Translations under genes and position numbers: made by a program | Shown: in pieces, positions 925 through 58,615 of the stretch | How positions within the stretch are numbered: the first letter of the stretch is position 1 | Layout: each line of letters begins with the position of its first letter | The notes under the pieces: generated by a model | What the model was told of the DNA's origin: nothing | What the model saw: the letters and a program-made list of their open reading frames with translations, nothing else | Databases searched by the model: none | From: Ulota crispa | Taxonomy: Eukaryota; Streptophyta; Bryopsida; Orthotrichales; Orthotrichaceae | DNA: 64,000 bases | Direction of reading: 5' to 3' | Assembly: GCA_963920765.1 (NCBI GenBank) | Contig: OY987246.1 | Span: 20,913,428 to 20,977,427, forward strand

Positions 925-974
925 ACTTTGGCAAGACAGTGAAGTAGCTGTGCTTTCTATTTTGGATTAGTCTC

Positions 975-3900
975 ATGTCCAAAAGTCCACGATCCCGCAA
1001 AAATAGACTTGCATGCGAACGTCGTGCAAAGCGCACATATGCTGAGCGTGATGCAGAGAACGCAACGCGGCGCGCCAAATGTATAAATCACCAGGAGTTG
1101 GAAGCTGCACGCGAAAATCTGCCCAAGGCTCGCGTAGATGATCTCAACAAAGATGATGAGTTCCACGTTGTCCAACTTGGTGCTACAACTGAAGAGGAGA
1201 CAATGGTAGTTTGCGAACAAAATCGGCAAGCGTTGCAAGCACTGGTGGAGGTACCATTAGCGCGACGTGTGGTGGATGGCTTGGCTGGCGGTCTTCGACA
1301 TGCTTTTGGGCGTATGAACAGTGTCTGCATCGCATGCAACGCTTTACATTGGGTTGAGGAGCGAGTCATTGGATGGGGCTCTACTATGGCAAACCCAATC
1401 TTCACCATGTGTTGCAAGCATGGGAAAGTTAGCCTTGGAGCATTGAGCATAGCTCCTGAGCCTTTGCAAAGTTTGCTGTTGGGTGGCACACAAGAGGCAA
1501 AGAAATTTTGTAATTCAATTAGGGCTTACAACAGCGCTTTGGCATTCACGTCCCTTGGAGCAAATATAGATCAACGATTCTCCCAAGGTGGTAACTACAC
1601 CTTCCGACTATAAGGCGCGTTATATCATTGCGTGGGTAGTCTTTTGCCAGCCAAAGGGGACAACCAAAAATTTGCGCAATTGTATATTGCGGACAATCAA
1701 GCTGCGTTCAACAGTCGAATGGTGGCCTTCAAAAATTTGGACCAAAACTTGGTGGAAAGACTTCAAAATATGTTAAGTCAGCACAATCCATATGCACAAC
1801 TTTTTGAAAATGTACGTGCACAATTGGCTGTGCAATCGGCAATCAATTTGGAACTTTGTCTTTTAACCTTGCGATCTAAGGACAAGCAAATGTACAACAC
1901 TCCAACGGCAGATGAGGTAGGCGCTATTATGGTTGGAGATGGCCATGATGGTAGTATATCCAAGAGAGACATTATTTTGAAGAGGATAAATGGGCCTCTT
2001 CAGCGGATATCCGCATTGCATTTTGCTTATTCGCCCTTGCACTATGTGCTTCTTTTCCCTTGCGGATGTCAAGGGTGGTCTCCAAACATCCCCTTGCGAG
2101 GCTTTGATGAAAGATTTGAGGAAGTGGATCAAACTGCTGTCAGGGGTAGAGGTGGGTCACGTAGAGTAACACAGATGCAGTTTTATGCACATGTGCTCCA
2201 CCCACGCAATCGGCACAACCACATTTTCTATGCAGGTCGCCTCTTACAACAATATATGGTTGACGCATGGGCTTGCGTTGAGCAGAACCGACTCAAATTC
2301 TTCCAAGACAACCAAAGGGACCTGCGATGTGAGCTATATAGTGGGGTCATGGATGCACTCAATGCTGGCAATCATGATGCATCACAAATTGGTCAAAAAT
2401 TCATTTTGCCGTCATCGTTTGCTGGAGGTAGACGTCAAATGAATCAATTATACCAGGACGCAATGGCCATTGTGCGTATGCATGGACGTCTCCATCTAAT
2501 CCTAACATTTACATGCAATCCAAAGTGGGCAGAGATTATAGCTGAATTATTACTTGGGCAAATTGCAAAAGAGCAACCAGATTTAGTCATGCGCGTATTT
2601 GAGATGAAATTTGAAGAGCTAATGACAAATTTGAAAGACCACAAGATTTTTGGGATAGTGATGGAGCAGATTTGGGTGATTGAATTTCAAAAGAGAGGTT
2701 TGCCGCATGCGCATATCTTGCTGATCCTTAACGCGCAATCACAATTGAGAACTGTAGATGAAATTGACTCGGCTATATCTGCAGGTAAGTTTACTTGCTT
2801 TTCTTTTTACAATGTTTTATGCAATAGGATCATTGTTTTTAGCCCAAATTTTGTAGAGTAGCTGGAGTATCTTGCTAAGCCATAGGCTCTGATATTAGAG
2901 AAGATGATATGATAATAATGTTGGGTATGTGCAAATATAGAAGGTTACATGAAAATGATTAGATTGTAGACTACTAAGCTATTTTGAACCTCAATCTTCA
3001 TGGCAAAATTGTCACTAATTTTTCCAATTCATTATGTTATTTTTTGTGGTTGGGGATCTAGCAAGTGAGAGAACATTGGACTTCACATCAACGTGGGCTT
3101 TGTGTTCATCTTGATATCCATAGCTATGGCGCACAATTTGCACATTCTTGAACAAGTATGTTTCATCTTTCTAACTCAATGATTAATAGTTTCAACAAAT
3201 AAGTTGTGTTTTCAATTATGATGCATCTACTTGGCTATGTGTGCAGAAATCCCAGATTCCGTTACCCATCTGGAGGCGTACGAGACAGTGACACAATGCT
3301 TAGTGCACAATCCTTGCGGCGCATTCAATCCAAACGCCCCCTGCATGGAGGATGGTAAGTGCACAAAGCATTATCCTCATAATTTTGCCAGAAAAACAAA
3401 AACAGACAACAATGGCTACCTTGCGTACAAGAGAAGAGATAATAGACACTTTTTTGTGGATAGCAAGGGCAATTCAATTGATAACCAATGGGTTGTACCG
3501 CATAACGTTTATCTAGCAACTAAGTATAACGCCAATATAAATGTAGAGGTACGATGTTGTTTTATCACACACTTTTTATTTCATGTGAAAACATTCATTT
3601 TACAGTGTGGCCATGTCTACTTTAGTGACGGTGTTTGTTGACGTTTACCGGATTGATTGTTATAGAAGGAGCTCCAAATATACATGCAATGGATCATCTA
3701 CCAATTTGACCACAAGGCTGTGCTTTATGTGCATGACAACAAAGAGTGGCCAAGATCAATTTTGTTACAAACATTGGACGATGAGATCAAATTTGTTAGA
3801 AACTTTGGAAAAAGAGACTTTGGACAATGAGACTTTGGACTCTATTGGGTGGTTTCTTCTTGCTCATTGTACAAAAAACAACTATCATCATGTTTGATGT

Positions 3901-4881
3901 CCTCTTGAGAAACAACGTGGCTCTATAAAGACATCAAAAGGCCACTTGGCACTCTTGGTGTTGTCCACATGATTGAGTCAATCAAACTTGCATACATTTG
4001 GCTCTTTGCTTTTTATGCAAATGAGATGTGTTTTCTTCACTAGCATAGCAAGTTCATGAATGATGCTATAGCTCTTATGGAAATGCTATAGATTCATTGA
4101 AAGGTTAGCTGCTATTTTATGTATTTTTTTTTCAAAATACCTCTTTTTTTATCTAAACTCATTTTATTGTGCGCAGGTTTGCTCATTCTTTACAGTTGTG
4201 AAGTACCTCTTTAAATATGTTTATAAAGGTCACGATTGTACAAATGTGGTTTTGCAAAGTTATGATGAAATTCAACGATACATTGACGCACGCTACATCT
4301 CTGTGTCTAAAGCAGCTTGGAGACTTTTTGGGTTCAAAATGCATGATCAATCTCCGCCAATTCAATGTCTCCAGGTACATTTGTCCAATCAGCAGCGTGT
4401 GACATTCAATATAGATGGTAGTTTGGCGGATATTGTTGCTGCGGATCAAGCTAGAAAGATAATTTTAACATAATAGTTTGAAGCAAATCAAACCATTCCA
4501 TTGGCCCAAGAAAAGTCCTATTTGGACTTTCCTTCACACTTTACTTGGCAAGCCACTGATAAAAAATGGGTGATTTGAAAAAGAGGATACTCAATTGGTC
4601 ATCTGTATTTTGTAAGCCCTTTGGCAGGCAAGAGGTATTTCTTATGCACGTTGTTAACCGTGGTAAGAGGTGCTACATGTTTTGAAAGTTTGCATACCTT
4701 CAATGGCAAAACTTTCAACTCTTTTAAAGCTGCGTGTATTGCACTTGGACTATACAAAGATGACACAGAATGGGAGCGTTGCTTAGGAGAAGCAGCAAGG
4801 ATGCAATTTGGCTCTCAACTCCGATCCCTTTTTGTGACCATCTTGATACATGGACCTCTAGCAAGTCCCTTAAAGCTTTGA
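975..4881 (+). pseudogene. Helitron Rep (HUH-Y2) domain and linker, frameshifted
   Basis: Rep of Helitrons nicks and rejoins DNA during rolling-circle transposition. Blocks in order: basic N-terminal region (975-1613); after a frameshift, IGSLLPxxGDxxKFxQLYI-type block (1632 on); long Rep core to 2784 with the HUH motif in KRGLPHAHILLIL near 2695-2725; intron 2785-3246 splicing A|EIPDSVTH; zinc-like block NPCGAFNPNAPCMEDGKC; WVVPHN; intron 3549-4176 splicing NINVE|VCSF; then the two catalytic tyrosines in KYLFKYVYKG at about 4200-4230. DARYISVSKAAWR and a VHLSNQQ block follow to 4473. After another frameshift, the linker GKRYFLCTLL...EWERCLGEA runs to 4881. HUH and both tyrosines are kept, but frameshifts at about 1613-1632 and 4473 and stops in the linker make it a pseudogene. 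Confidence 0.88.
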
Positions 4882-5086
4882 CAAGACCTTTGTGAAGACA
4901 TGTCAGATGATTGCTCTCACCAACTGCGTCAAATCGGAGTCAAACAAGCGTCACAAGACTAGATACATAGTCTTGCTTTGAACCTCATTGCTCAACTTCT
5001 TGCAACTTATGATAAGTTGTTAGAGGATTTTAATCTGCCACAACCTGCATTTTTGTTGGAAGAATTGCAAGGAATCAAGTTCATTT

Positions 5087-6546
5087 TTGAGGAGCTTGAT
5101 AGAAAATGTGGAAGAGTTGAGAGAAAAGATTCAACGGCAAATTCCCACTCTTAACATGGAGCAGCACGACATCTATGACAAAATCATGCAATTGTGTTCA
5201 CTTGACACGTGTGATAAAGTTAATTTTATTGACGGTCCTAGAGGAACCCGCAAGACCTATTTGGAAAATCTTCTCTTGAAAAGTATATGATCACAAAATT
5301 AGATTGCATTGGCTCTAGCTTTGTCTGGCATAGCTGCATTGCTTCTAGAAAAGGATGGACTGCACATTTGCGTTTGAAATTTCCACTGGAGCTAAATACA
5401 ACTTTTGTATATAGCATTCAAAGGCAAGGTGAGCTTGCTGAACTCATCCGTCGCACCAAACTTATCCTTTGGGATGAAGCACCGATGGTGAACAAGTTGA
5501 CATTTGAATCTCTTGATTGGACTTTACGCAACATCAGTGGGAAACATGTGCCGTTTGGAGGAATTGCTTTTGTAATGTGTAGAGACTTGAAACAAGTCTT
5601 GCCTATTGTTCCAAGAGGACTACGTCCAAATATTGTTGCGGTGTCAATTAAAGAATTGTACCTCTGGAGGCATGTTGAGGTGCACGCACTACGTCAAAAC
5701 ATGAGTGTTATGGGACCGGCTTTGCTTCATGATGACCTTGGGAATTGCACTTTTGCTAATTGGCTTCTGGCACTTGGTGAAGGCAAGCTTGACATGGTCA
5801 AAGAAAATTACGTTTGCTGCCAAAATTGGTAGTATTACAAGACCAAAGTTTGGAGGGTTTGATCACTGCAGTTTACTCAGGAATTGCAACTAGACAACAT
5901 GGACGAGAGTATTTTAGCAGCCGTGCCATTCTTGCCGCCCACAATGATGATGTGGCAACAATCAATGCAGCTGTGCTTGATAGAGTTCATGGGCAAGCTC
6001 AACAATTTTTGAGTGCTAACAAGGTTGATGATGCCAAAGGCAAGAACATGGTATCAACCAAATATTTGAATTCCCTAGAGGTTAGCGGATGGCCGCCACA
6101 TAAGCTCACAATAAAGGTTGGAACTCCTGTGATGCTACTTTGTAATCTAGACCCATCGAATGGGTTGTGCAATGGTACTAGATTAATTGTGCGGCGTCGG
6201 TCTCCCCGGGTTTTGGAGGCTGAAGTCCTTATAAGAGATCATGCAGGATTCATTGCATTTATTCCTTGAATTCCCTTGATCACCAAAATTTCTGGATTGC
6301 CTTTTGCAATACATCGCAAGCAATTCCCAGTTTGCGTTGCTTATGCAATGACAATAAACAAATTGCAAGGACAAACGCTCATGAAAGTAGGAATTTGCCT
6401 TACAAAGGATGTCTTTCTCATGGCCAGTTATATGTGGCTTTTTCACGTGCAACTGCTCTAGAAAATGTTTTGGTGCTTTTTGGTGCACAATCAAATCCAA
6501 ATGAGCCATTGATGCGGAATGTTGTGTATAGCAAAGCACTTAGTTA
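5087..6546 (+). pseudogene. Helitron PIF1-type helicase domain, frameshifted
   Basis: This is the SF1 DNA helicase half of the Helitron RepHel protein. LNMEQHDIYDKI leads into the Walker A region, which reads GPRGTRKT where the family has GPGGTGKT. After frame changes come TAHLRLKFPL, Walker B LILWDEAPM at about 5458-5485, PFGGIAFVM, LKQVLPIVPRG and LWRHVEV. From 5814 the C-terminal helicase motifs follow: NDDVATINAAVLDRV, HKLTIKVGTPVMLLCNLDP, GLCNGTRLIV, then AYAMTINKLQGQTL and, in another frame, HGQLYVAFSRAT, ending at 6546. At least four frame changes and two glycine-to-arginine changes in Walker A show that the enzyme is dead. Confidence 0.88.
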
Positions 6547-16925: not shown

Positions 16926-18285
16926 AACTTATATTGATCAACTCATAACCATTGATAGTTGAAAGAACCAATGTCATGATCTAGGTCAAGACTAATGATC
17001 ATCATCAATTTTTTCACCTATCAACTCATTCATGTGTCAATGGTTGTGACAAGGGTAGTAACAAAGATAATCCTTGGATTGAAACAAGAGGTGCATACAT
17101 AATTTTGTAATACATATTTAACAAAATGAATGCAAGGCCAGATTGAATAATTCTCCATGTACCCTTGTACTCTATCTGCTAACAAAGAATTTGTTATGAT
17201 GCTCTTAAGAAAAGTGAAATGAATTTTTGAAGGATGAACTAGCCTATATAGTGTTGACTATATTTTAAATACAATCAGGGATATTGTTGGAAAAAGCATA
17301 TGTTTCAAATTTGACAAACATTATTTTTAGAATAACTCTCAATATTAGTGTAAAAATAATTTAGGATAATAGTAATTTTATGTTTTACTAGTTGTGGTAC
17401 CCGTTGTACAAATGAGTGCAATAGCAAGTTAGAAACCTTATCACAAAAGGTGGCCAATTAAAAAAATTGTAATTTAGTTAACTCACAAATGCTAGCGACT
17501 TGATCAAAGCCTCATTAGAAACCACATTATGCATGTATCCCTCTCTCGCATGTAGGAACGCTCATGTATTCTTTTGTATAAGTAGACACCTTCTTGTTGG
17601 TTAGTGAGTTCATCCCAAGTAGTGATCTAGTTAGTGAGTTTGTCCACAACTTTCTTTGGATCCATCAGAACGCTCATGTATCTAATCTAATATATTAATG
17701 GTTGTCACATTGGGCCGCTTGCCAGCTTGTATGCGCTAAGTGTCCAATTTAGGTCATGGTGCGTCCGGTGAAGTCAACTCATAGTTGATTTTTTAAAATG
17801 TTGCAAATTTATTAAAAAAACTTACTTTGTACATGCTAGTGAAACTTGTTGTTGCCAACATGAAGTCAACTTGTGGATTCAAAGCCATATAACATAACAA
17901 AAATGAAAATTTACAATTTGATTCTTCCATTTTTAGGTCAAACACCCCAAAAATGCCCTAAAAAACGTGAGTGGACAAACATGTCTGCCTGTCCGGTCCA
18001 ATTTATATGCTTGTCCGTGCTGTTCGACATCCTCAACTTGCCCAAAGTAACAACATTTATATAAAAGATTCCCTGTGGGCTATTTTGGATGAAAAGTAAA
18101 ATAGAGCAAAGTAACACTAAAGTATGACAAATCACTAGAAGTTACACCACTCATTGCAAGTTATACCACAACATTCTATTTTATCCACATACAACACTAT
18201 CTTTTATTTGCTTCACCAGAAGTTAACAACAAGTCACTAGCAGTTGCACAACAACTTTCTCTTGGCCAAAGGGGGGCACGTGACA
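16926..18285. other. AT-rich intergenic DNA
   Basis: No gene, tRNA or clear element recognised. Confidence 0.4.
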
Positions 18286-18575
18286 TAGGGGACGGGGCAT
18301 AAGGGGTAGATGGATAGGGGGTACATGAATAGGGGGCATAGGGATAGGGGGCATGGGAATAGGGGCATGGGGATAGGAGGCATGGGGATAGGGGGCATGG
18401 GGATAGGGGGCATGGGGATAGGGGGCATGGGGATAGGGGGCATAAGGATAGGGGGCACAAGGATAGGGGGCATGGGGATAGGGGGCATGGGGATAGGGGG
18501 CACAAGGATAGGGAGGTACAAGAATAGGGGGCACATGGATAGGAGGCATGAGGATAGGATAGGAGGGCACAAGGA
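18286..18575. repeat. G-rich minisatellite, about 16-bp unit
   Basis: About 17 imperfect head-to-tail copies of a unit like GGGGGCATGGGGATAG, varying as CACAAGGATAG or CATAAGGATAG. The open frames across it on both strands (for example repeated PCPLS or GIGGM) are artefacts of the repeat. A related array in the opposite orientation is at 58405-58615. Confidence 0.9.
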
Positions 18576-19363: not shown

Positions 19364-20384
19364 TTAAAGTTAATGACATGTTTTTTTTTTGTTTCAGTTT
19401 TTAGAATATACATCTAGAGTAACTTGTTGTGTTAATGGGTGATTGCAAGAAACACTTGTACTATTTTTTGTCCCCTTGCACTATGACGGGTGCTTTTTGG
19501 ATCATAACTTGTGCTACATAACTTTATTTGACCTGAAATTTTAAAATAAGGTACGTATGGTAGTTGTAGACATCTAGTAATTTCTTGAGTATTTTAAAAA
19601 TTAGCTAACTATTTTTCATGATGCCTCAATATTTTGTCTACCTTTGCCAAAATGAGGGTTTTCAGTACTATTTGGAACTCAGAAAAGGGAGTTTGATGCT
19701 ATAAATTGGAGGGGCTGTTCATTAGGGACCACTACATAGATTTATAAAAGGATTTTTGAAAGCTCTTAATTTTGTGCTTTGCACATGGCCTGAAAGTTAG
19801 CAACCATTGGTCAATCATTGGATGAACATAACAAACTTCCTCCCAGAAGTACTTACATCATTGTAAGCGTCTCAAGGAGGACACAAACGGCTAATTTTTG
19901 TTTTAATTTTCTAAGATTTTCTGTAATTACTAAAAATGAAAACATGACTCCACAAAGTTTCTGGTATTTTCTGCCTCCCATGCATTATGAGTACTACATT
20001 CCCATTAGTAGCACAATTTAGTACTATCGACCGTTCTTGTTGGTTGTAGTTCAGGGTCTCTTTTTCATCCATGCATTTAATTTTTGTCACTGTAAGTTTG
20101 CCTTTTGCCGTCATCTTTGTTCATAAGGAGTAATGCCCACCGACTTGAGATCATGGAACTCCCTCGGCGAGTGTTACTTGCCGTCTGTTACTCAAGATAG
20201 GACTTTTGCAACATTCTGCTTGTAGTTTGTAGAAGGTAGGATACAATTGTCATGTCGTGTATCCCAAAACGTAGTGATGCCGCCACGCAATGCCAGAGAG
20301 AGGAGCCCCGGTCCGATGATAAGGCAAGACATGGTGCGGTTATCCAATGATAGGCGGCGGAGACAATGGAGGGAGAAGCAGCGT

Positions 20385-23300
20385 AGGTACCGTCAGTGAT
20401 TGGAGGAAAGAATGCATAGTGCGACAAAAGAAGTGCAGTCAAGCTCATTCCGCGCCACTCTTCATCGACGGGCTGGCAAACTGTCCAAAGATCTGATTTA
20501 TCACCTGGAGCAATTACCTAACTACAAATTAAGTGCTGCCATCCTAGACACCGCGTTCAAGAACCAAACTGTGAGGATGCTCATTCCAGACTACTACCCC
20601 AGTTCCGAAGACGCAAGAGCTCAGCGTGACATTTTGCAGAACATTAGACTAGACTTGCAGGTGATGAAATTCCTGCATTGCGGCGGCATGCTGGCCCAGA
20701 AGCGCGTGATCCTTGAAGCAATTGTATTGGAATGGGATTGCAATTCAAGTTGATTCCACAAGATCCTTGAAATTTGCAAGCAGAATGTAGAGTCTACCAC
20801 GCGTAGGCTGCAGGAAGTTGATCCAGATTCATCTTTTGTTTCAAAGTGCCATACAAGAAGAAACGCGACGGAGGCATTGCAGAGGACGTGCAGGCCGCTG
20901 TGATCATTTGGTGGACTGCTGAGATGCGAGTCAGTCCCAACCGCAAGCAAGTGCGTGAGAAAAGGTTAGGGCGACGCATGTACGAAAGTCACGCTGTCCA
21001 TGTACTAATGGAGAGCCAGGTATGCACTACACTTAGGAATTGCGATGTACTTATGACTGCCAAGTCTATACTGTATCAATTCCGGAATGATTTTAACTTG
21101 CCTTCTATGTTACAACATAGTTAGCAATAATTTTGTTCCAATGTTTTTTCTTTTAGGAGCCATTCATGCACTTCTGCTGTGACCGCTCCCCAGACCTACT
21201 AGTGCAAGAAGAAAAGGGAATGCACCATACGCAAATGCTATGAAGGCGCTCATGCTTCTTCATAGTGGATCGCATCTACTTATTTACGCTACAGTAGTGT
21301 CGTTTGAGATCGGTGTCCTGGCCAACATCATAATCTTAGGATTTCGTAGTGCTGCTGGTGCCACTTCCATGGTTTAAGCTGCCGTTTAGTACTGCACACC
21401 ATGGTATTTTGGGAACTATAAACGCCCATATTACTAAATCCGTGGTACAGATGCTCATTCTGTCAATACTAGTAGCCATGGAAGGCATTGTAACGCTCTC
21501 AGGTATACCGTCAAACAATTTATTTGTACTACATACTCTCTTGTCTTCTTCTGTACGCTTCTTGGCATTCTAATGTAGTACATAAAATTTGTTAAGTTCT
21601 TCTATCCTAGTACTAAATGACAGTGTCCTATACATACAGCGACTGCATACAGATACCACGCAGTAAAATTGATTTCTATGGCAGTATAACACCACCTTGA
21701 CCGTTCCTTGGAGGTTCCAGTGGGTGGTGTATAGTGCTACCTTTGTACAGTCTTGTCACTTGCAAGGTATGGGTGGGAGAGTAGTAGTTACTGTTGGGAG
21801 GGGATAGGATTGTAACCGCTTAGCGTTGATACTCTAGAAGGGATTGGCATTACTATCTGCTCTCCATTGTATTTCAAAGGTACTAGGATAGTATCCAGAC
21901 CTGCAGCCAGTACTAGCAATGTACATTTTTAACGGTACACTGTATTTTCACCACGTTGTAGTAATGCTTTCAAAGTACTGCTACGCACATCCAAAGTACA
22001 GTTATGTAATTCCAAAGTACTGTTGCATATTTCCTAGGTACTGCTCCCTATTTTCAAGGTCCTATTGCATACAACCTATATATGTCGTATAGATGATAGT
22101 ACTATTAAAGGGCACTTGTATACTTTCCATAATATTGAGGCAAACTAAGTCCACAGTAAATAGTACTACAATCTCACTACGTTCTTGCTGTAGTACTGAA
22201 TGCGAGAGTGGAATCATTTTGTAGTGCTACCAAATACCTTGTTCTCATGAATGGATGTGAGTTGCAGGCCAAATTGTTCTAGCGCTTCCAAGATAGTCAT
22301 CTTGATTTACAAATCATGATGCGGTCTTTTGTCAACTTGCGGCCCTTCTTTGTTATCACATGTGAAGAATGACATGTTTGTTGCTGTCGCCATCGCATTC
22401 AAGTCCTGTTTCTTCTATAAGCATTGAATGTCTTTTGCGATCCACAACACGGGGCACATGTCCTATTTCATTGCAATTGCCAATGTGGTGTTTGCGGTTC
22501 CAGTGCTAATGGAAGCTGCCATGTCAGGGCCAATCTCCTATCAGGTGTAACGGAGATGTGGATGTTTGAGTTATGTCAGAAACCAGAACACACCGAGTTC
22601 CACAATATCAAGTACTGTTTTTTACAAATGAATTCCACTTTTATGATTTCTTCACTTTCTCGGGAGGCTCACATTCTTCTCATGCTTGTTAATGTGCATA
22701 GTCCTTGCAGGTGCTTGATGGGATCATGTGAACAATGCAGAGTACAGACTTTTCACTTATGTCCTCTCAAAAGAGTAGACAGACTCCACTATGTAATTAA
22801 GTGGAAAAAATTTCAATACAAAATTGTTGAAGCACTAGATTCACTAAGTCACAAAAGCAGATCAAAGAGGTCACTCACAGCACTACTTTCTCTGCTTTCA
22901 TGGACTCCTTCAAGCCAAATCTAAAGACGTTTGTGGTCCACAACTTTTGCGCTTATTGGCAAGCCGATCAAGCCAAGTTAGCTAAAGATTGCTTGCCCCA
23001 AGGTGCAATACTCACACATATTCATTTTGCTAAAAATTATAATTTCCAAATTCAAAACAAAATCTAGTCCATGTACTATCATTCAACGCAAGTGACAATA
23101 ATGGTTCAAGTGGTTTACCGCATAGAAATCGTGGACGACCAAAACAACAAAGATCCAACTCTCATTCGTGAGACACACTACTAGATTTCCGACAATATAG
23201 CCCACAACACACTATTTGTGCAGCACTGCATGCTTAAACATTAGCGGTGGTTGGTGGATCGAGGTTGCAGTCCCAATATGCACCTAGTCTTTAGTGATGG

Positions 23301-25154
23301 ATACTCAGCAATGATTCAAAGGTGCACGCTTGTTGTATTTTGTGGCAAGGTACGCCCTTCAATATGAACCACAATTGTATACTCTAGTTTATGTCTTCCC
23401 TTCAATGTAGTTGTTTGACTGGTATTGGCTGTTGTCAATGTCTACCTCCTGGATTTCAGGTACCCATTTCTTACAAGTGGCTGTAAATGATTTGGAACTT
23501 CTATGATTCTAGTCACGGTAAAGGAGAGTGGGATGGCGCCGGCACAGTTGTCAAGAGAGCACTGCAGCAAGAGCAGCTCAGGAATACTGACCGACCACTA
23601 GAAAATGCCCGCAATTGTGTGTCTTTCTTGGTTGCTACTATGGAGGGGCCAGTGGCCGTCTGTAATGGACGGATGAGGTATGTGCACATCACTTCTCACC
23701 TACTAGAAGATGCTATTTTGTATAACTGAAGGGGTCCACACTTTCTTTGTCGCACCGTCTCTATATAACCACCCACACCCCAAGAAAAAATACTTTCACA
23801 TATTCCGTTCTGTTATATGGTACTAAAAATAAATCATCCTTATAACATACTTGTAACTACAGTTAGAAAATCTTGAATACAAATATGCTCAATGTCAAAC
23901 ATAAACATCTAGTAAAATGAGATAAAATTACTACCTAATTCAAGGGGTGAAATACGTGACGCTACTGTTCATGACAATGAAAGAAATAATGACTCATACA
24001 AATTCCGTCAATACAATTGTAATGGACGATGCAGTCAACATGGTTGCCCAAATTACCCTCCGTTTCCATGAAGGTCACTCTATGTGCAAATAGTACATAA
24101 CCAATATTGCCTACTCATGGGAACAATAAAAAAAAAGGGGACGCCATATGGTTTATGACACTAATCTTACTTGCGACTAATCTCAAATTTTAACTATAAT
24201 ATTGTCATGCAATAAGGACACTTGTATTCATTTTTTAACTTAATGACTGCTTATTGGGATCAAGTACTACATCCAGTAAGGAAACATGTACATATATTAT
24301 ATTTCTTGAAAAAACAACTTCACATAAACATGATTTCTTTTACAAAACACGTGGGATCTCTTAATGTTTTGCATGTTTCACGTTTTGCTCCATATTCTAT
24401 AGATTTTGATAAAATGTGAACTTACACTTACAGATCGTACTGCTACTTCTATCTAGTTGGAATTGATGATGTTGACCGCAGCTTTGGCTCATGCATGCTG
24501 TCAAATACCTGGTTCCTCTAAATTTCACTTTGTGTTTGCACCTGATACACGTGACCCTACAAAGGTCATGGTCCGCCCTTTCAGTTGTTTTTGCAAACCT
24601 TGTTTGGAGGAGGACTTTGGCAGTTGCGATCAGCAATCGTATGTGCTAGAGTAGAAAGTCTACAAAATCCAGCCGCTAAATGTCAATTATGCACAAATTG
24701 TATTAGAAATTGAAGAAGGTGACAACAAAGGGAACTAGGAATACAAAGAGGATGAGGGGAACATGTTGGAATTGGTCCAGCCAGGCGACAATTTTGCAAT
24801 ACCTGCAAAGGTGGACAATGCCAAGGGAATATCATTCTACATTCTTCAATGCTAGACTAGAAAGCACCTTGTGGAACAGGACTTTGAATACCCGTGGGGT
24901 GCATCTTTCAAACGAGGGGACTTCATCATCACATCAACTTACTACCAAAAGTGGAAAAGATCGGCTCACACAATTATGTTTACTTGAAAAATTCAAGACA
25001 AGCTCACATCGACGCTGATATTGTCTTAGCTTGCAAATTCCAAATGATACCTCGTGTGCATAGAGTAAAGGGTGGCGCTCTAGTGTACTCCTTGCTACCT
25101 GAAAGCGTTGATGTGATTAGCTGCTCGTTGGAAGAATATTACAAAAGCCATTGA
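20385..25154 (+). pseudogene. Transposon-encoded DDE-like protein, degraded multi-exon gene
   Basis: Coding-like pieces lie in order. 20385-21018 is a helical N-terminal region ending at CAG|GTATGC. 21157-21243 includes FMHFCCDRSPDLLV. 22424-23348 has cysteine clusters (CNCQCGVCG, CLMGSCEQC), then ILTHIHFAKNY, then LVFSDGYSA. 23460-23729 contains MIWNFYDSSHGKGEWDGAG and VVKR. 24433-25154 includes VRPFSCFCKPCLEEDF. The SDG and HGKGxxDGxGxxVKR signatures occur in large transposon-like protein families of plants and animals whose catalytic core I believe is DDE-like, with an acidic residue in DFAENY. Here that block reads HFAKNY, so the putative acidic residue is lost. Several frameshifts and stops occur. 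Likely the element's former transposase; the family name is uncertain. Confidence 0.65.
21380..22210. promoter_or_regulatory. GTAC/AGTACT-rich tract, left
   Basis: Roughly 17 GTAC sites, many as AGTACT or AAGTACTG, fall in about 830 bp. The random expectation is about one per 256 bp. The tract sits between coding pieces of the plus-strand gene. It may be an array of binding sites for the element's own protein, or just an internal degenerate repeat. Confidence 0.35.
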
Positions 25155-25597
25155 GTCCATGACTATCACCACGTTGTTGTTAAGGTTCAAGTACAGATAT
25201 ACTCTTTGTATCCAAGGATCTCGTAGAAGGTGTTTCAGTTTTAGATAACCAGATGTGTTATTGCATCAATACGTCTATAGTGATGGATACTTCCATGTAG
25301 TGAAGCTACTGCTTTCAGTCTTTCCAATGAAGTAGAACTAATTGTAAAGAGGGCTGCATATTACAATGTAAATGTGAAGGACTAGAGTCCACCCATCAGC
25401 CTAATGTAGTAGTTACTATAAACCGTCAAAGTCAGTGACAGAACATTTGAAAATTTGATTTTGGTTCACAGCCTTACTTTCTTCACCAATTGTCACAGTG
25501 GAGACATACAATAGGGGTGGTCCTTCTAGTACGTCTTAATCCTATCCGGGCTATTAGGGTCCCTATAAAATTAGTTGAAGTTTTTGCTACCATGTGG

Positions 25598-26960
25598 TCA
25601 TGACTGCCTACAAAATGCACTACCATAGATGCAAGCAAAAGGAAGAACCCTGGACTCATTGCTCTTCAACTCAACCCCATAATCCCACGTCAATTCTTCA
25701 CCGCCTGGAAAGTCTCTATTTGTAAAGAATGCAACCTGCATTGCATGCAATAATAAGAATCACAAGCACAATGATAAGGACAATGCGCACTTGTAAATGA
25801 AAATAAATTAATCTTTTGTACCATGTTTTTGTACGTATGTGGTATAGGGTGGGTTGCGTACTCTCAGTCCTCACTGGCATCTCCATTACATTAGCGTTGC
25901 AACATTTGCAAGCATTAGCAACAATCAGTGACTGAAATGGATGTAGTTTGAGCAGTAGAACTAAAATGTCAATGGAGTTTGCATACTTGTGGTTCATCCA
26001 ACAAGCTATATTAGTGCAATTTTTGGCATCAACGCATAGCAAGTCCTCATCCCCCTTATAGGACTCAGATTGCCAGTGGGCATTAAGTAGAACTAAAAAT
26101 ATACCCCCTTTTGCACGTTTGAACAACTCTACGTTTGTCACAACCTCACCCGCATACTAAAACAGAAAGGACCCTTTACAAATTGGCTGCAGGGAACAAA
26201 TTCCCACCCCTTCTGACTATTCACAAGAAATACCTAAAAAGCCACACAGTTTGAGCATTTCTAGACACTTGGCACGTAAAATTGGAGATGCGAGTATAAT
26301 TAATACAAGAGTGACAATTGATTTTGCATACCTCAAATGGCAGCATGATCCCTCTCTGCATAACTCAATTTCCACAGTCAAGATTGCAGTGGCATCTTGA
26401 GGTGCACTCTTTTATGTAAACTCATTGGACCTGACCAAGGCATGCTTCCCTCCAATAACCTTTACACATGAAATCCCTCCAGCACTGGACAACATTGTCT
26501 TTGCCTCCATCTCTGCACTTCAGAAATTGGAGAATACGGCGGTAATTTGTAATTAGGACTAAAAATAATTTAAGAAGCAAGGAACTCTGTTTAACATTGC
26601 ACATGAATAAATTAATGCGCATGATATAATAGAGAACACTCTAGATTAGTTATGCCATCAATCAATGGACATGAGAACATTCCTGCTAGACTATTTGATC
26701 TTTGAGTTGTCCATCTCTACTACAAATGCATCCTCCACTCACAAGACAGTAGCAATAGCCGCCGGTCCGATTTGTACAAGAAGTTGCACATGCACAAAAC
26801 TATTCTTCACAAGGCAATGCGATTATTGATCGCAACCATATAGAGGAGTGCACAATCTGGGACCGCGTGTATTGGTACGACAAGACGTCCCAGCATGGGG
26901 CTTCTTGCATGCCACTACTTTGAGAGCAGCGAATGGGAGTGCTCTCAACACCTTGAAAGT
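25598..26960 (-). pseudogene. SUVR-type SET-domain histone methyltransferase, pre-SET to post-SET, degraded
   Basis: SUVR proteins methylate histone H3 lysine 9 in plant chromatin. Minus-strand exons give, in order: a cysteine-rich pre-SET piece (26805-26678, with TGGYCYCLVSGG); YIKECTSRCHCNLDCGN, a stop in place of an expected arginine, then VMQRGI (near 26420-26332, ending at a GTATGC donor); after an intron SQKGWEF (family KGWGV); YAGEVVTNVELFKR; LLNAHWQSES; DEDLLCVDAKNCTNIACWMNH; an intron; NANVMEMPVRTES; and the last exon 25735-25598 with VAFFTNRD, GEELTWDYG and PFACIYGSAFC, ending TGA. This matches SUVR4-like order closely, including the NH and the WDYG tyrosine. Damage: the stop, a frameshift before YAGE, G-to-E in KGWG and loss of one post-SET cysteine (family CxCGSxxC). 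Introns are retained, so it is not a processed copy. Confidence 0.85.
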
Positions 26961-28625
26961 AGTCCAACTCGATGCAGCCCTATGCTTATAATTCATCTTT
27001 AAGGGAATTGGAGTAGAGAAGATAATGACAACAACACACGTCAGCAATAGCAGGTGTGCAAGAAATCCAAAAGACATGGACACAGCTCCTCAAAATGCAA
27101 GTAAACAATTCAACAATGCAGAACAATTCTACAAGAAGTGCAACAAGTACACAGCGCCAATGAGTTCTAATGACCTTCCAAATGATAACAACAGCGTGTA
27201 CTCAACTCTGATAGGAATAAGCCATGAAGCAAACAAAACAATTTTCCATTACAAAAATGCCCTCAATGGCTATAAGGGAATATGACAATAACCAATAATT
27301 GGAAAGAAAGTAGCAATCAGAATGACGGTAGTGATTAGCAAGGGTAGCAGCTCCAGCTCCGCCAATGCCGGTGATGAACCCCTGCATCACTTGCACACGC
27401 GCAGATCCAAGCAAGAACCTCAAACCATGCCTACTTCTTCGTTACCTTCTATTTCCTAGCTCCACGAGTGACGTGAGGCCTTTTGACTTTTGGCGGTGAC
27501 AAAGCAACGAGCACTTGTTTTGACGACCAAAGAAATCTGATGCGTTCAAGCAACAGAGGTTCTCGCTGCAATAGGTCAGGACTTGTACTCCCCTATGGAA
27601 TTCCCATTAAATTGTTGTAGCTATCTGTAGTGGATGAATCACCTGTCCTATGCAAAATATTGCCCTCCAATAACATTGGTGGCAAAGGCTCTCCCTCCCT
27701 GTCCGGACCTAGAACATTCCACAATCTACAAAGGCATTTTAGATATTGTAGATAGAGAATAAGTGAATGTAAATGAAAGTCTAAAATTTCAATTATGCCA
27801 TACCATATGTGTACCTTTATCAATCGCTTGCAAGGCTTTTAAAGCTTCCTCTTTGAAGAACTCCATGTAAGCATTTTTTTTGGTGGCGAATCAAGGTCAA
27901 TAATGGGCCCCCCCTGATATAGAAAATATGCTGGCTTCCCTAGGCAATGCCATGCTAGCTTTGGCATGAACCTTTGAACGTGATCACCACGCAAGAAGGG
28001 AAGCGAATTAGAAATCCTGACTATAATGGGATCACATTCCACACAACAATAATAATTTTTGGTAACGTGTAAGAACCCACCTGCATGTCATTGGCCACCG
28101 GCTGTGCATGCAAAATGGACCACTCTTCATGTGTCAGCTGGTCACTGGCTGTAGCTGCATTTGAGGTACTGTCCAGCTTAGCTTCACCAACTATGTTTGG
28201 CAAAGGAGACACAATGTTCTCCATCCCTGCAATTCTTGTTAATAGAGCTTGTGCCACACCACTGTTGTAGACAACACCCATAGTACATGCAGGTGACAAA
28301 TTAGAGCGAGGAGTCAATGCGAGGGATACATGGGAGAAGTTTGAGCCAAGATTTTGGGAGGGCAGCTATACAAGAGGCCGTCCGCTACTGTTGCCGGCTT
28401 CCGCAATTGATGTCAAGAATGTACTCCCGGACGCTGACGCCGTGGCTGCACCGTGCCCAAATGCATCTGAACTTACAACATGAACAGAAGAAGACATGTA
28501 AGTCTCAGACCAAATACAAATTTTAGACATTTTTTGAAGTAACCTACACCAACTGCAATAATGTTAGAAGCTAAGTTGCCAACACTGCATGTCCCGTCCT
28601 TTTGGTGGTGCATAGTACAAGGGTT
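26961..28625 (-). pseudogene. Possible linking exons between the RING-like and SET parts
   Basis: Short open segments on the minus strand (28317-28080, ending DMQ before GTGGGT; 28042-27839 with LPFLRGDHVQRFMPKLAWH; 27823-27593; 27560-27420) look like exons of the same gene because they follow the RING-like exon, whose end (near 28638) is a GTAATC donor. I recognise no domain. The expected WIYLD domain of SUVR1/2/4 is not seen. Confidence 0.35.
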
Positions 28626-31079
28626 TCACAGATTACCTGTGATTGCATACCCTTCTGTAGATTTGAGATGCACCCTTGTCACATTGTCGCCAGGGGTGAT
28701 GCTGTCGCGGGTGGCCGTACTGCAATCTTTGTCGTCCTGGCCAGCAAATCCCCATGCTTTCAAGCACATGGGTGACACTTGGCCACATTCCAATGTTGCG
28801 CAGTCAGATGTTTCTCTGAACCAAGAGGCTGCGCACCATGGATGGTACAAGTGCTTGCAACTATAAATGAATGTGTGCCAGTACAGAAAGTTGTCAGAGC
28901 AAACGGCACACACCGGTCTAGATGGCATCTCCTCAAAATCAAGGTTTGACTGTATGTCTAGCCCCGGCAAAGGAAGAGCTGCGGGATGCATTACGCAACC
29001 AAGGCGGCCTGCTTGCAATGTCGCTTGCTCGGCTTGCAGGGCTATCAAGTATTGAGTTGATGCTTGTAGGCAAAACCCGGCATGCCCTTCCTTGACCTCA
29101 AGCATGGGCTTGCGCATTATCACATTTGAGTAGTTGTCCATGTTGTTTTGCAACATATCATGTATCGTGCTGTCTCCAACAACCTTGTTGCGAGACATTT
29201 CCTAGTTGTCATTGGAGGGAAGATCAAACATTGTCCCAAATTTTGCAAATTGTTTCACCTTTTGTACAATCATGGCATTGTAGAACAAGGCTTCCTTGTC
29301 GACGTCAGCAAGCCTATTGGTGATGTCGCCGACCTCCTCAATGAGAAAGTCCACCTCTTCCTGTACCTTACTAACTACCGCATCCATATCAAAATTCCTG
29401 CACCAAGTGGAGCCAACATTAATGTAGTTGAGCCTTAAGAGATGAGCAAATGCACATTGCCTCATTTGAAACCCAAAGCTGCCCGTCATGAAGTCAAGGA
29501 AGACATGGAAACATTAGAAAATGAAGGGATGGGGTTACCTGGCCAATAGCATATCAAAGTTGTACGTTGGCATTGTGAATGTAGACTAAGGCTCCTTGTC
29601 GTTTCCAGTGGTGATGTCAACATCCTCAGGATGCCAGAATTCCTTCTTCACAGCGGTGGTGCCATCTTTAAAAGCCCTGCCTCCAATGATGGCATCTACT
29701 TCAGATGCTACATCCACGTTGGTCTGCTCTGCTCCTTGTAGGCGAAGGAGCCACATCTTCACTCGTACTCTATAATTAGGTTGCTGGAGATGATTAGTCT
29801 CCGCTGCAAATTTTGCCCAATTAATATGCTCACCTTTTTTGTGTTATAGCACCTAACCTATTGCCAATTCTTTTGCAACATGGTGAGAGGGCGTCTTCTT
29901 TTTATAGTAAAGACAATACATGGCCTCCACTTCCCTACGCTCGCTAGTTGTTAGTCTCTCAGACAAACTAAAGTCATTGCGGCTTTTGTCCAAACCAAAG
30001 ACTTCCTCAATTTTAGAGACACAAACATGTTTCCCAAGCTTCAATTTGTGGAGGTTAATGCCGGAGCTACTAAGTTTGAATTCATCATAGAAGTCTGCCT
30101 TGGTCAAGACCCGAGGTGGCATTCTCAACGGCATCTGCAGTTTTTCTAAAGCCTTTCTGCATTGCTCGGCGGTGAAACACTTCTTCTCTCGCTTTGGTCG
30201 CTGCAAAGAACACCACCCCTAAACCAAGTCACTGGAACACAATAAAGCAGCAGCATGGTCATAACCCAAGCTCCTATCATTGCCACTCTATAGAGTTTCT
30301 AGTCACAGTAATTTGACAGCGTGGTTACTGTGATTTGTGACGTACTTTGAACTTTGCGAGGCGGTTGGGGGAAGAGGATGCGTTGTTGTTGTTGTCTTCT
30401 TCCGTATAGTAGTCAAATGCATTTGATTCCGCCTTCCTTTGGCATTTTTCCTAACGTGCCTGTTTCGACGCAAATATGAGTGATTGTCACATACCGGTTT
30501 TCTCCGTCCTCAATGGACTGTGCTTTTCCTTTGCTAGAGGAGTTGCAAACACCTCATCGCCAGTCTTTGACAATCTGTGCTTCACGAGTGTGGGAGGTGG
30601 TCCTCCCAAATGCCGTCAATGCAGCAAAACCTCCTCGACAAAATCATTGTCCAAAATCTCAACGGCAGTAGACATAGGGGCCTCGCGGGGTACCGGTTGA
30701 CGTGCATTGTTTTCAAAGACTATGTCGCCCCTAGAGCTTGCACTACCCTTCTTTGCTTGATCGGAAATGCAGCAGACGTCAGACATGTGGCCCCATCTTT
30801 CTCCGCTCCGGACGAGGCCCTTTTTGTAGAGTTCTTGCCTCTGGATCAAAAAATTTTCTTGTAAGTGATCGCCTGCCCCCCACGGTTGCCATCAAATGTG
30901 CCCTGGGCTACTTCTATGTTGGCCGTATGCTTGGTGGATGCGGCCTGTTCAATAGCGTCACGCAATCCGCCCTTGGCATGTAGCTTCACAGTATGAGACT
31001 TTACGGGTTTCCAAGAACTCGGAGCTGGTCGGCTAGCCTGCAAAATAGTATAGATACTTAATGCAAAAGCAATGGGCAA
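28626..31079 (-). pseudogene. RING-like zinc-finger N-terminal part of the minus-strand transposon gene
   Basis: Minus-strand exon pieces: 31079-30846; 30849-30616 (MSTAVEILDNDFVEEVL); about 30440-30350 (NAFDYYTEEDNNNN, donor GTACGT); 30206-29853, a charged helical domain (RPKREKKCFTAEQ, KLKLGKHVCVSKIEEVFGL); 29489-29202 with a probable coiled coil (VVSKVQEEVDFLIEEVGDI); and 29198-28638, which holds a RING-H2-like finger, CAVC, then CKHLYHPWC and C-x4-C, near 28915-28800. RING fingers usually act in ubiquitin transfer. Frames are longer and cleaner than in the facing gene. It could be a separate gene from the SET part, but same strand, spacing and a donor at the end of the RING exon favour one transcript. 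Confidence 0.5.
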
Positions 31080-31204
31080 TATTAGCCTATTGTGAGGGGC
31101 TTCATGCGATGAACAAGTGCAAAGACGTCATATCAATTGTTGTGTTTCATAAAGCGCTGCCATCGTAAGAGCTATTGCAATCCAGCATTATTACATGTGC
31201 ATGT

Positions 31205-32260
31205 AGTACTAGAGCACGGTAACAAAAGGACTACTACTGCACACTGAATCATAAAAATAGTGCCTCTAAAGTACTTAGTGGGATACCAAATACTACCAGC
31301 AGTGTTGTCGTCAGTATAACTGGGTAGTGCTAGACGTAGTAGTATGACTATGTATGTAGATGATGGAGTACTACAAGGACAACTTCCACTAGCATTACTT
31401 TTACAGCACATGGTAGTTGTAATCGAATGTCCTACAGTCGTATGAGAGAGTAGACGCACCCCATGAATTTCAAACGAGGTTTAGTACAATGTTCACTAAG
31501 TCAGGAAATGAGGACTGGCTAAACTAGTAACAGCGGTGGACTGCTGCACACCAATACTAAACAAAGAAGAGGTAGTACTGTCACTAAGAGGTGAGAGTAA
31601 CAAATGTGAAGGACAGAGTTAGTAATACAATAAGATGGAAAAACCTTGAGGACTGATTGTAATACTGATGAGGTGCACAGGAAAGTAGTTGGGAGAAGAG
31701 ACAAAAGCAGTCAGTACTGTATAGTATTAAACCTGCAACCTCTCGTATTCGAAAGTGGTGTTTTGTGACCAAAATAAACCATTAAGGAAGATGAATATGC
31801 AAGCACAAGGAAGACAGTAGTATCACTAAGTACATTGAGGACTACAGCACCTACTAATGGCATAGTTACCCGCACCTTGTAGAAGGCAAGGGACATTGAC
31901 AAGGACTCTCCTATGCTCTTCATGCAAGAACAGCACTATCCAATACCACTTGGTAATGGAATTAGTACAGGGGGCTGCTGTGTTGTCCTAAGTATTTGGC
32001 AAAGTAATGGTTGTTTTTTTTCAATAGGGTGTACTGTCTTGGAGGCACTCTCTAGGGACGTGGAACCGTACCTTAGTAAGAGTTTGACAAAGAATTACCA
32101 ATGTTTGAATAAAAACCAGAAACAAATGTACGTGAAGTGATTTTATTTCATTTTATCAGCAATAGTGACATGTGGCTTAAGTACTACTCTATGTAGACAT
32201 TGTTATAAAAAAAATTTAAAAAAAAGATAGCTATTGCATGTACTTGATATAGGAAAGTAC
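31205..32260. promoter_or_regulatory. GTAC/AGTACT-rich tract, right
   Basis: About 14 GTAC sites, several as AGTACT, lie in about 1 kb just upstream of the minus-strand gene. This resembles the tract at 21380-22210. It is a candidate promoter or protein-binding region of the transposon. Confidence 0.3.
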
Positions 32261-34096
32261 TTGAGATGAAATTCCTGTCACTATTTTAATTGAATAGGTG
32301 AATTGTGACAAATGTGGTAATTTGTAATCTCTCTAGAACCCCTACTATCTCTTGTCATTATTAAGCTACTGTATTGTTTATGTATTGTGAGAGAGTTTGT
32401 CCTCTTGGTAAGATTGTGGCTGAGTAAACTGTGAATTATGAACTAGGATATAGTAACACAAAGTATTAGTGTGTTTGGAAAAAATGTATTGTCAAATAAT
32501 TAAGCAAACGGTAGTAAAATGAAAATTAGGATAAGATGGGCAAAATGTGTTGGAAATATAGAATCAATGTATTATGAAAAGAGGATTGTGTTGATATTAG
32601 GATATTCAATGGGGAGCATGTGTGTTGTGTGGTTTAACATGTGTAATCTCTATTTGTATATAGCAAAATTTATGTAAGTCAAAGAATTACAGATAATACT
32701 AGGCAATGATGTTGTTATGTTTGGAGTAGATATTTCAGCATTAGAAAGGACTTTAGAACCTATGTATGGCTCATTTTGTAAATTGTTAAAAATTTTGTAA
32801 CTGTGGAAAACAGTAGCAAAGTATTTGAAAATTTTTTGTGAAAAGAAGATTCTGCTAGGACCCTTAGACTGCCTGTCCTAGTCACTTTGCAGCCCTTCAG
32901 TCATAATCCAAGGTGACCTAGACATTCTCTCGGGAGTCTAGTACCCTGAATGTTGAGACAATGACCTCAGGATACCAAGACAGGTACATTGTCTAGGAAC
33001 CCTAAACAATCACCACTAGCAGAAGAGAGTAATCTACACAGGGCATCTACACAGACAAGAGGCGTCAAACATTTTGTTCAAAACAAACACAAAGTCCTTG
33101 AAGTTGCATTGTCTACCCCTGACAAAATCACCGACATACATAGCACACTCTGAAGAGTAATACTACAAAGAACCACTCTATGGAAGTGCCAAAAAAGTAG
33201 TCTTCAATTTGACAAACATGAGAGCATTGCCCTACAAGCGCATGGCATACTCCAAGGTGCTAACCTGGACATGGTAGGGACTCCTACGAGATCCTGCCAC
33301 TGACATAGTAAGCCAGAGACGGAACCTCTTTCAGGAAAAAGCTAGAACCTGCTCCCATCAAAGGAGATACCCTCATCTCCTAATGCATCAAAATGAAAGG
33401 ATTGGAAAAGAACTTGAATCCTAAAACTATGGATTTGGAAATTAAAAATGCCTAACAAACATGGGCAATAGTAAGGAATTACCTCTGCCATTCTCAAAAG
33501 AGAGTTGTTGATGGAGGTGATCACGTGTAGCACTTTCTGAAAACGCATAGCAAAACCCCCGCACCCAAACCGCCCTAAATGTTTGTTGAAGTCTCTAATG
33601 AAGTAGCTTGAAATTGTGGTCTTCTTCGTGTTGTGAAATCAAACCCTCAAAAGTGTTCTTGCCAAAACATGAAACATTGACACTTAACAAAACAGCGCAT
33701 CCTTGAACCGAATATTACGCAATTTTTGTGATGCGCAAAAAAAGTAGTACACCACCTTCCACAAACCGCGCAACACAGAGGGGCCTTGGAACCCTTAGTT
33801 GCAACATTCAATGCTTCAAAACAAAGCCACACTAAAGCGGATGTCATCCGCGGTCTCTATTGACAGAGGGATTGGTGTTATTTGCCACATGCCGGCCAAC
33901 CGGGCAAATTGCGAAGTCTGTGGGCTATCCCTATTAAAGCGCCCTACTACTTTACAAACACATGTCACATTTCAATTGAATCTTGAATTGCATGGATAGT
34001 CCAGATCTCTTGTAGTTGGATATTGTGCAGTACTTGTAGCACAGGTAGTGCTGACACCATTAGGGTCGGAAACGTCCCTTTTGAGACAGAATTGTT
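32261..34096. other. Right inner end of the TAAT element
   Basis: Mostly non-coding. A minus-strand frame at 33847-33647 encodes CCAVCGRWC...HHKNC, then CFVKCQC, a possible zinc-binding fragment that may be a leftover first exon. Nothing else is recognisable. Confidence 0.35.
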
Positions 34097-34203
34097 AAGT
34101 CTTTCTTGCAATGACCCTAATGTAGAAGTAAGTCAAAGGTAAAAGTAAATTTATCATTTAATATTGAAAATAGTTGATTCAAGAAAAATCATAATCTGAG
34201 TCA

Positions 34204-58404: not shown

Positions 58405-58615
58405 ATCCCATGCCCCCTTATCCTCGTGCCTACCTATCCCCTTGTCCCCTATTTCCGTGCCCCTTATCCTTGTGCCCCCTATTCCTATGCCTCCTATTCC
58501 CGTGCCTTCTATCCTTGTGCCCCTAAATTTTACTTTATTCCATATGTTGTACCAACGGGTTGATCCTTGTGCCCCCTATCCCCGTGCCCCTCTATCCTCA
58601 TGCCCTTCAAATTTT
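58405..58615. repeat. C-rich minisatellite, opposite orientation to 18286-18575
   Basis: About 11 imperfect units such as CCTATCCTTGTGCCCC, the complement of the 18.3-kb array, split by a unique 45-bp stretch. The next 60 bp (containing CAAACTTGTACTCTACTC) match the complement of about 19087-19105, so array and flank were copied together. Confidence 0.8.

Follow-up and report, generated by a model that had tools for sequence, protein, structure and literature searches.

Does a plant transposon carry, as an integral part, a gene for an enzyme that writes silencing marks, or was a single host gene copy caught between transposon ends? This question is raised by a locus within the window, i.e. 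the whole 64,000-nucleotide stretch of Ulota crispa DNA analysed here. A preliminary description had proposed a 14.7-kb segment with matched ends and a TAAT duplication, containing a DDE-like transposon gene and a convergent SUVR-type SET gene.

Ends and gene content of the window element

The segment at 19437..34117 was identified as a 14.7-kb DNA transposon with 21-bp inverted ends. The left terminal inverted repeat (19437..19457, plus strand) reads GGGTGATTGCAAGAAACACTT and is 90% matched to the right repeat (34097..34117, minus strand), the complement of GGGTGATTGCAAGAAACACTT. A TAAT target-site duplication was read directly from the sequence on the left (19433..19436) and on the right (34118..34121), bearing out the proposed ends. 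Among eight short derivatives that were fetched, five exhibited an exact 4-bp duplication. The first 180 bp of the left end also occur at numerous additional genomic sites.

Two convergent genes lie between these ends. The transposase-like gene (20229..25157, plus strand) comprises several exons or frames, with tblastx blocks shared by five distant copies at 20229-20978, 22262-22840, 22831-23349, 23487-23690, 24420-24482, 24487-24960 and 24957-25157. Conserved tblastx blocks of the minus-strand SET gene extend from about 31073 to 25604. The proposed gene arrangement was upheld but the window copy is not intact, as stop codons occur within conserved frames of both genes. The C-terminal SET and post-SET exon (25604..25747, minus strand) lacks the full post-SET motif and matched PF00856 weakly (18.3 bits, E 0.0032, below the cut-off of 22.4). 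It is preceded by an N-terminal SET block (25815..26213, minus strand), conserved across copies and containing TAG stops in the window copy, and by conserved pre-SET blocks at 26326-26535 and 26683-26973 (together 26326..26973, minus strand). Both domains were detected in a less decayed relative, L029 (pre-SET PF05033, 8.4e-13; SET PF00856, 1.9e-8), whose nearest solved structures were EHMT2, EHMT1 and SETMAR. Further upstream, an open frame (28629..29201, minus strand) contains a RING-like zinc-binding module with its core at 28746-28919 (zf-RING_2, E 6.6e-4, below cut-off). In 46 of 62 SET loci the module lies on the strand of SET and upstream of it, a raw count for a module scoring below the Pfam cut-off. 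An additional coding block conserved in tblastx (29541..30203, minus strand) belongs either to this gene or to a neighbour.

Ceratodon purpureus (P0061) and public sequence sets contain relatives of the transposase. The label 'DDE-like' draws on conserved acidic motifs only, since no Pfam family was found for the transposase-like frames and relatives scanned; that part of the preliminary description thus stands at the level of motifs and not of a family. A PDB search produced one weak match, to an interleukin (E 0.011), and a superfamily name was obtained from neither the Pfam nor the PDB search. MuDR/MULE elements generate 8-11-bp duplications, which do not agree with the 4-bp duplications and missing Pfam match of the moss element, and CACTA/EnSpm elements have CACTA ends and 2-3-bp duplications, as compared to ends of GGGTGATTGC and a 4-bp duplication here. 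Sola and Ginger are among the superfamilies with 4-bp duplications, and Lanisha is of moss origin. The transposase of Lanisha is described as EnSpm-like with C(2)C and H(3-4)H motifs (PMC12730594). Assignment to PIF/Harbinger (HarbingerS), for which a 3-bp duplication is given (PMC2213677), is at odds with the 4-bp duplications and with the lack of a Pfam transposase match, and assignment to KDZ/Zisupton is at odds with the 8-bp duplication given for Zisupton (PMC12730594).

Copies of the element and pairing of its genes

Both ends surrounded both genes at six of the eight loci scanned for ends, the window included. The five further copies thus share paired ends and both genes, two of them being about 88% identical. 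Duplications were exact in four of the six full copies (TAAT, CACA, AATT and ACTT) and contained one mismatch in the other two. This evidence of paired ends and duplications pertains to the first of the three clades into which the element SETs fall (see below); second-clade ends were looked for in the sequence stretches examined and none were found, and third-clade ends were not seen either.

Genome-wide, a convergent SET locus was present within 15 kb of 52 of 71 transposase loci, as compared to a mean of 0.2 and a maximum of 3 convergent pairs in 1000 runs of random placement. No convergent SET was detected within 15 kb of the other 19 transposase loci, and only one of these (C10:2172621) has any SET within that distance, on the same strand. 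Nine of the 62 SET loci had no convergent transposase within 15 kb, including two host-like genes of SUVR type and two of SUVH type. These nine loci would be in keeping with duplication of host SUVR genes followed by insertion of transposons beside them. Such an origin is nevertheless extremely improbable given the prevailing convergent order and the solitary, same-strand SET near unpaired transposase loci, and it is wrong for the first clade, where both genes are bounded by the same ends and flanked by duplications. Another amplified SET family (L049, L050) is not part of the element and was set aside.

The clade of the transposase was the same as the clade of the SET in all 50 pairs that could be sorted out of the 52 paired loci. 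The prediction that several copies would each hold the two genes within matching ends was confirmed, and the alternative offered alongside it, capture of a single host gene copy, fails in the face of these many copies.

Most of the SET copies that were read have decayed. Stops were present in all eight first-clade rows and in nine of ten second-clade rows (in the SET parts read), and the tenth second-clade row (L029) contains a frame break. Third-clade genes, read from the end of pre-SET to post-SET only, were stop-free across the SET to post-SET blocks in four of five loci. A complete intact element gene was not established among the copies read. SET and post-SET motifs were partly kept, as NHxC, WDYG and post-SET CxCx4C were found in 8, 8 and 6 of ten second-clade rows and in 3, 4 and 5 of five third-clade rows, respectively. 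The first clade had WDYG in four and CxCx4C in five of eight rows; its NHxC count of 0/8 (NH itself 7/8) is partly an artefact, because the residues following NHx were left out when these rows were put together.

Phylogeny, selection and decay of the SET gene

In a tree, 23 element SETs formed three supported clades near plant SUVR. Element and SUVR rows grouped together against SUVH and EHMT2 with support of 100/98, in agreement with the SUVR-type assignment first made from the window, and the element rows fell outside a clade (96/97) formed by six host SUVR rows. A second-clade SET query was 29-45% identical to element SETs of the other two clades. Constrained trees with one clade for all element SETs (p-AU 0.224), or with element SETs joined to moss SUVRb (0.223), to all moss SUVR (0.22) or to SUVRa (0.104), were not rejected. 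Joining the second clade alone to moss SUVRb was rejected at 0.017, a value uncorrected for several tests. As these alternative groupings were not rejected, the tests fit a capture that either preceded or followed the divergence of mosses and angiosperms. A protein search limited to lengths between 0.55 and 1.75 times that of the query returned six proteins (E up to 1e-10); these bear domains of SUVR or SUVH type, and none is an element SET.

Past selection was assessed by dN/dS. Second-clade SETs exhibited a mean of 0.24 (45 pairs from 10 loci), with 41 pairs between 0.11 and 0.37 and the four closest pairs between 0.39 and 0.71. Distant pairs of the first clade gave 0.16 for pre-SET plus SET and 0.12 for the transposase; synonymous sites of distant copies are near saturation and many pairs were unusable. 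A non-coding control, made for close copies only, had means of 0.52-0.57 (single frames 0.31-1.54). Because of this control, close copies were taken to be neutral and the case for selection was based on distant pairs alone; low values between close copies were ruled out as a sign of selection. Among close copies, C-to-T decay affected 24% of CG, 21% of CHG and 6% of CHH sites, a methylation-type signature.

Gene-fragment capture is common in plants, and a host SUVR gene could have been picked up once and merely spread by the copies without use to the element. The stops in most SET copies read, and the decay of the closest copies at about the rate of non-coding sequence, are what such a passenger would exhibit. 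The persistence of SET in three diverged clades, the partial retention of WDYG and CxCx4C in all three, the low dN/dS between distant copies and the complete clade agreement with the transposase make this reading improbable. Paired ends, pairing, clade agreement and SET conservation across copies together indicate that there was no one-off capture. The window segment is therefore very probably a degenerate member of a cut-and-paste family in which complete elements contain, besides the transposase gene, a convergent one for a SUVR-type methyltransferase with a RING-like module upstream; this methyltransferase is very probably an integral component with a history of selection.

Possible roles and comparison with known systems

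Plant transposons are among the main targets of H3K9 methylation, and yet one of them appears here to have retained a gene for a member of the enzyme family responsible for that mark. The methyltransferase of an active element would act in trans on chromatin at element copies, most likely on H3K9, and may prolong the element's survival by making host silencing weaker or setting it differently. A plausible, if tentative, account is that extra or modified H3K9 methylation on the copies blocks or diverts the host's silencing. A possible route is a feed-forward loop from H3K9me2 to H3K36me3; in Arabidopsis, H3K9me2 is reported also to trigger anti-silencing H3K36me3 (PMC11204290), and the VANC genes of VANDAL are described as anti-silencing genes of plant transposons (PMC5735166, PMC10398659). 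The enzyme might instead silence its own copies, limiting copy number or insertion damage and allowing persistence at low activity. H3K9 activity of SUVR4 in vitro (PMC7218100), participation of SUVR2 in Arabidopsis silencing (PMC4260354) and the possible self-methylation proposed for retrotransposons with cytosine methyltransferases (PMC5890265) speak for such self-restraint, as does the CG/CHG decay in the copies. Host silencing alone predicts that signature equally, and selection would find a self-restraint gene harder to keep among competing copies, so that this role is rather doubtful. Some other role altogether is unlikely, and a direct aid to transposition, e.g. in target choice or end access, is less likely still. 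As some mosses are transformable, whether a parasite can gain from writing a silencing mark is a directly testable question. The three diverged lineages also allow the evolution of a captured chromatin enzyme away from its host counterpart to be compared.

The closest plant counterparts are SUVR1/2/4, which share pre-SET, SET and post-SET and form the nearest clade in the tree. WIYLD (PF10440), an N-terminal domain of plant SUVR proteins, was present in both host proteins scanned (P0130, P0131) and is listed for P0132 and P0133, whereas the element frames scanned had the RING-like module instead and no WIYLD, although an exon-split WIYLD could escape such a scan. It is conceivable, though unlikely, that the superfamily has carried its own chromatin-writing cassette as far back as can be traced; the RING-like module would replace the ubiquitin-sensing WIYLD, and the element would supply both ubiquitin signal and methyl mark, setting the chromatin of its copies and short derivatives independently of the host.

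VANC proteins are not known to be SET enzymes. VANDAL resembles the moss element as a plant transposon with a gene that influences, or in the moss would influence, how the element is silenced, and differs in that VANC proteins are described as binding element DNA (PMC5735166, PMC10398659). In primate SETMAR, a SET methylase and a transposase were likewise brought together (PMC6326780), but as one domesticated fusion with mariner downstream of the SET gene; the moss genes are separate and convergent in a dispersed family, and scans of transposase frames and relatives gave no Pfam mariner match. DNMT retrotransposons of dinoflagellates and charophytes also took up a writer of silencing marks, but are described as retrotransposons acting through DNA methylation with the enzyme inside the element's coding region (PMC5890265). 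Fungal TET/JBP DNA transposons similarly encode an enzyme whose targets are epigenetic marks; it oxidises methylcytosine and is accompanied by other transposases (PMC12730594). SET-bearing DNA transposons are already known from oomycetes, namely HarbingerS and MuDR of Phytophthora (Kojima and Jurka 2014, cited in PMC12730594), which likewise incorporated a SET histone methyltransferase gene. As far as these are described there, the moss element differs in its plant host, its 4-bp duplication, a transposase without a Pfam family and a gene of SUVR type with pre-SET and post-SET.

Ends, copies and short derivatives of the element

The window (G000:C5:20913428-20977427) was compared with the rest of the genome (274.8 Mb, 157 contigs). 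Matched ends and a TAAT duplication, as claimed in the preliminary description, were confirmed for the element at window 19437-34117, with 21-bp ends that are 90% complementary and a TAAT at both flanks. A scan for these ends covered eight loci, the window counted among them, and the proposed check for several copies with both genes inside the same ends was borne out by six of the eight. Besides the window, both ends surrounded both genes at C7:6890187 (flanks CACA/CACA), C1:24.52 Mb (AGCA/AGTA), C1:37.77 Mb (AATT/AATT), C2:18.97 Mb (ACTT/ACTT) and C4:8.52 Mb (GTGG/GTGA). Only the left end was seen at C3:33.02 Mb and only the right end at C5:4.29 Mb, where the stretch examined stopped short of the left side. 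A ninth stretch (C6:18.79 Mb) was included in the alignment and lay outside the end scan. Identity among the three closest copies was 87.6-88.0%. The alignment also placed ~2.1 kb of additional sequence in the C7 copy (~6899.4-6901.5 kb), probably a nested insertion, at the point equivalent to window 29649.

A left-end search gave 1119 first-look candidates, from which 40 matches, including the window and two close copies, were scored; nearly all of the others ended at about base 180 to 194. Eight of these remaining matches were fetched (L051-L058). Six short derivatives (L052, L053 and L055-L058) had both ends, 739-843 bp apart, and five of the six exhibited exact 4-bp duplications (ATGA, CTAG, TGGT, ATAA and TAGA), L055 having unmatched flanks. 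The right end of L054 was doubtful and the left end was not found in L051. As exact duplications recur in five of the eight fetched derivatives, a 4-bp duplication is well established for this family.

Other features were observed in the window. A Helitron-type element (948-6269), whose coding parts are apparently split by introns, contains a Helitron_like_N match (1614-2858, E 5e-56) and a Pif1 2B domain (5793-6266, E 5e-20). Tandem 15-bp repeats at 18257-18575 have related repeats in inverse orientation at 58387-58604, and a direct duplication of ~0.4 kb, roughly 90% identical, lies at 60365-61197.

Genes carried by the element

Pre-SET and SET matches exceeding the Pfam cut-offs were obtained for METHYLTRANSFERASE in L029, a less decayed SET locus. 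The best solved relatives of this gene were EHMT2, EHMT1 and SETMAR, and the best SUVR protein match was P0130 from Ceratodon. The earlier SUVR-type assignment was upheld by a tree built on 179 columns, in which 23 of the 34 rows were element SETs; these and plant SUVR were separated from SUVH and EHMT2 (support 100/98). Element SETs fell into three starred clades (the window copy in the first, L029 in the second) and the six moss and angiosperm host SUVRs made up a separate clade (96/97); capture of the SET may have preceded or followed the moss-angiosperm split. WIYLD was found in both host SUVR proteins scanned and was absent from the element frames scanned. The element frames contained a RING-like module scoring below the Pfam cut-off. 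A second amplified SET family (L049 and L050), diverged and dispersed, was observed at ~30 places by match length near 342 bp, with L049 matched at the DNA level in 16 places; this might be a gene family or a passenger on another element.

The transposase matched no Pfam model. Near-invariant motifs (i.e. ENY, S.D..HD and SDGC..QFK) were common to 47 aligned rows of relatives chosen from those found by searches; relatives included a named one from Ceratodon purpureus (P0061) and one from a mollusc (P0114, Tegillarca granosa). With Ceratodon supplying both this relative and the best SUVR match, the host is most probably a moss, and its eleven large contigs (41 to 6 Mb) would suit a moss with eleven chromosomes. 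From the acidic motifs and their order we infer a DDE/D enzyme, in agreement with the earlier 'DDE-like' label.

Both genes described for the window copy were present, each interrupted by stops and hence not intact. Stops occurred in the SET parts read of all eight first-clade rows and nine of ten second-clade rows, the tenth (L029) having a frame break close to its end. Four of five third-clade rows were stop-free across the stretch read (end of pre-SET to post-SET, a part of the whole gene), and for this reason some element copies may still be open.

Linkage of the transposase, SET and RING-like sequences

A transposase core query from locus L030 produced 126 matches and a SET query from L029 produced 75. 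After matches at one locus were merged and two SET loci from an earlier search were included, 71 transposase and 62 SET loci remained. A convergent SET was present within 15 kb of 52 of the 71 transposase loci. When loci were placed at random on the same chromosomes 1000 times, the average was 0.2 such loci and no run exceeded 3. No convergent SET was detected within 15 kb of the other 19, and nine of the 62 SET loci, among them four host-like genes (two SUVR, two SUVH), were without a convergent transposase within this distance. Clades were sorted for the 50 paired loci in which both genes had an identity to second-clade queries (the other two SETs came from the earlier search). With a threshold of 54% identity, set after the lists were seen, 18 pairs were second clade by both genes, 32 were other by both and none were discordant.

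A RING-like module was located upstream of the SET, on the same strand and within 18 kb, at 46 of 62 SET loci by raw count; the two may or may not belong to one gene. The nearest distance was 2.4-10.7 kb (median 3.0). At fifteen SET loci (e.g. C8:20.73-20.74 Mb) another such module lay farther upstream of the SET, at 11.9-15.3 kb, which suggests larger elements with one more gene. At two transposase loci without a detected SET (C1:12.93 Mb and C3:22.03 Mb), a RING-like module was observed on the opposite strand, 5-7 kb off; as this module persists nearby, the SET may have been lost or missed. Contig C11 (6.3 Mb) carried ~14 transposase loci per 10 Mb as compared to 0.8 to 4.8 on the other ten large contigs.

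Past selection, putative function and known systems

For the second-clade SET, mean dN/dS was 0.24 over 45 pairs of ten loci, with the four closest pairs spanning 0.39-0.71 and the other 41 pairs 0.11-0.37. Distant first-clade pairs (usable pairs in brackets) exhibited dN/dS values of 0.12 for the transposase (13 of 25), 0.16 for pre-SET plus SET (22 of 25), 0.22 for the RING (8 of 18) and 0.18 for the block next to it (6 of 18). Close first-clade pairs, at 0.32 to 0.59, look neutral since these values are near those of a control using arbitrary frames of six non-coding stretches, drawn from close copies only (means 0.52 to 0.57). It is the distant pairs alone, whose synonymous sites are near saturation, that speak for selection. 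C-to-T change was 24% at CG, 21% at CHG and 6% at CHH, with A/T-site transitions at 2.7%; such an excess is what would remain where silenced copies in plants had been methylated at CG and CHG.

These comparisons, made at the level of sequence, show that the family is mobile and that the methyltransferase gene is an integral part of it, with marks of past selection. At the copies of the element the putative enzyme would target H3K9, working in trans. H3K9 activity is described for Arabidopsis SUVR4, altered by ubiquitin, and no activity for SUVR1 and SUVR2 in an in vitro assay (PMC7218100), so the element's enzyme need not be active. In Arabidopsis, H3K9me2 can trigger an anti-silencing branch (PMC11204290), and an element could thus conceivably profit from depositing this mark. 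Re-tuning of host silencing by the enzyme is a tentative reading, favoured over self-restraint, in which the enzyme would hold back its own element and which we consider rather improbable.

No plant transposon with a SUVR gene appeared in titles and abstract openings among the matches listed for SET domains with transposons in open-licence PubMed Central, a collection that most subscription papers fall outside. DNA transposons with a SET gene (HarbingerS and MuDR) are reported from oomycetes (Kojima and Jurka 2014, as cited in PMC12730594), and retrotransposons carrying cytosine methyltransferases are described in PMC5890265. The present element is a variation on an already known association of SET and transposon, and not the first of its kind.
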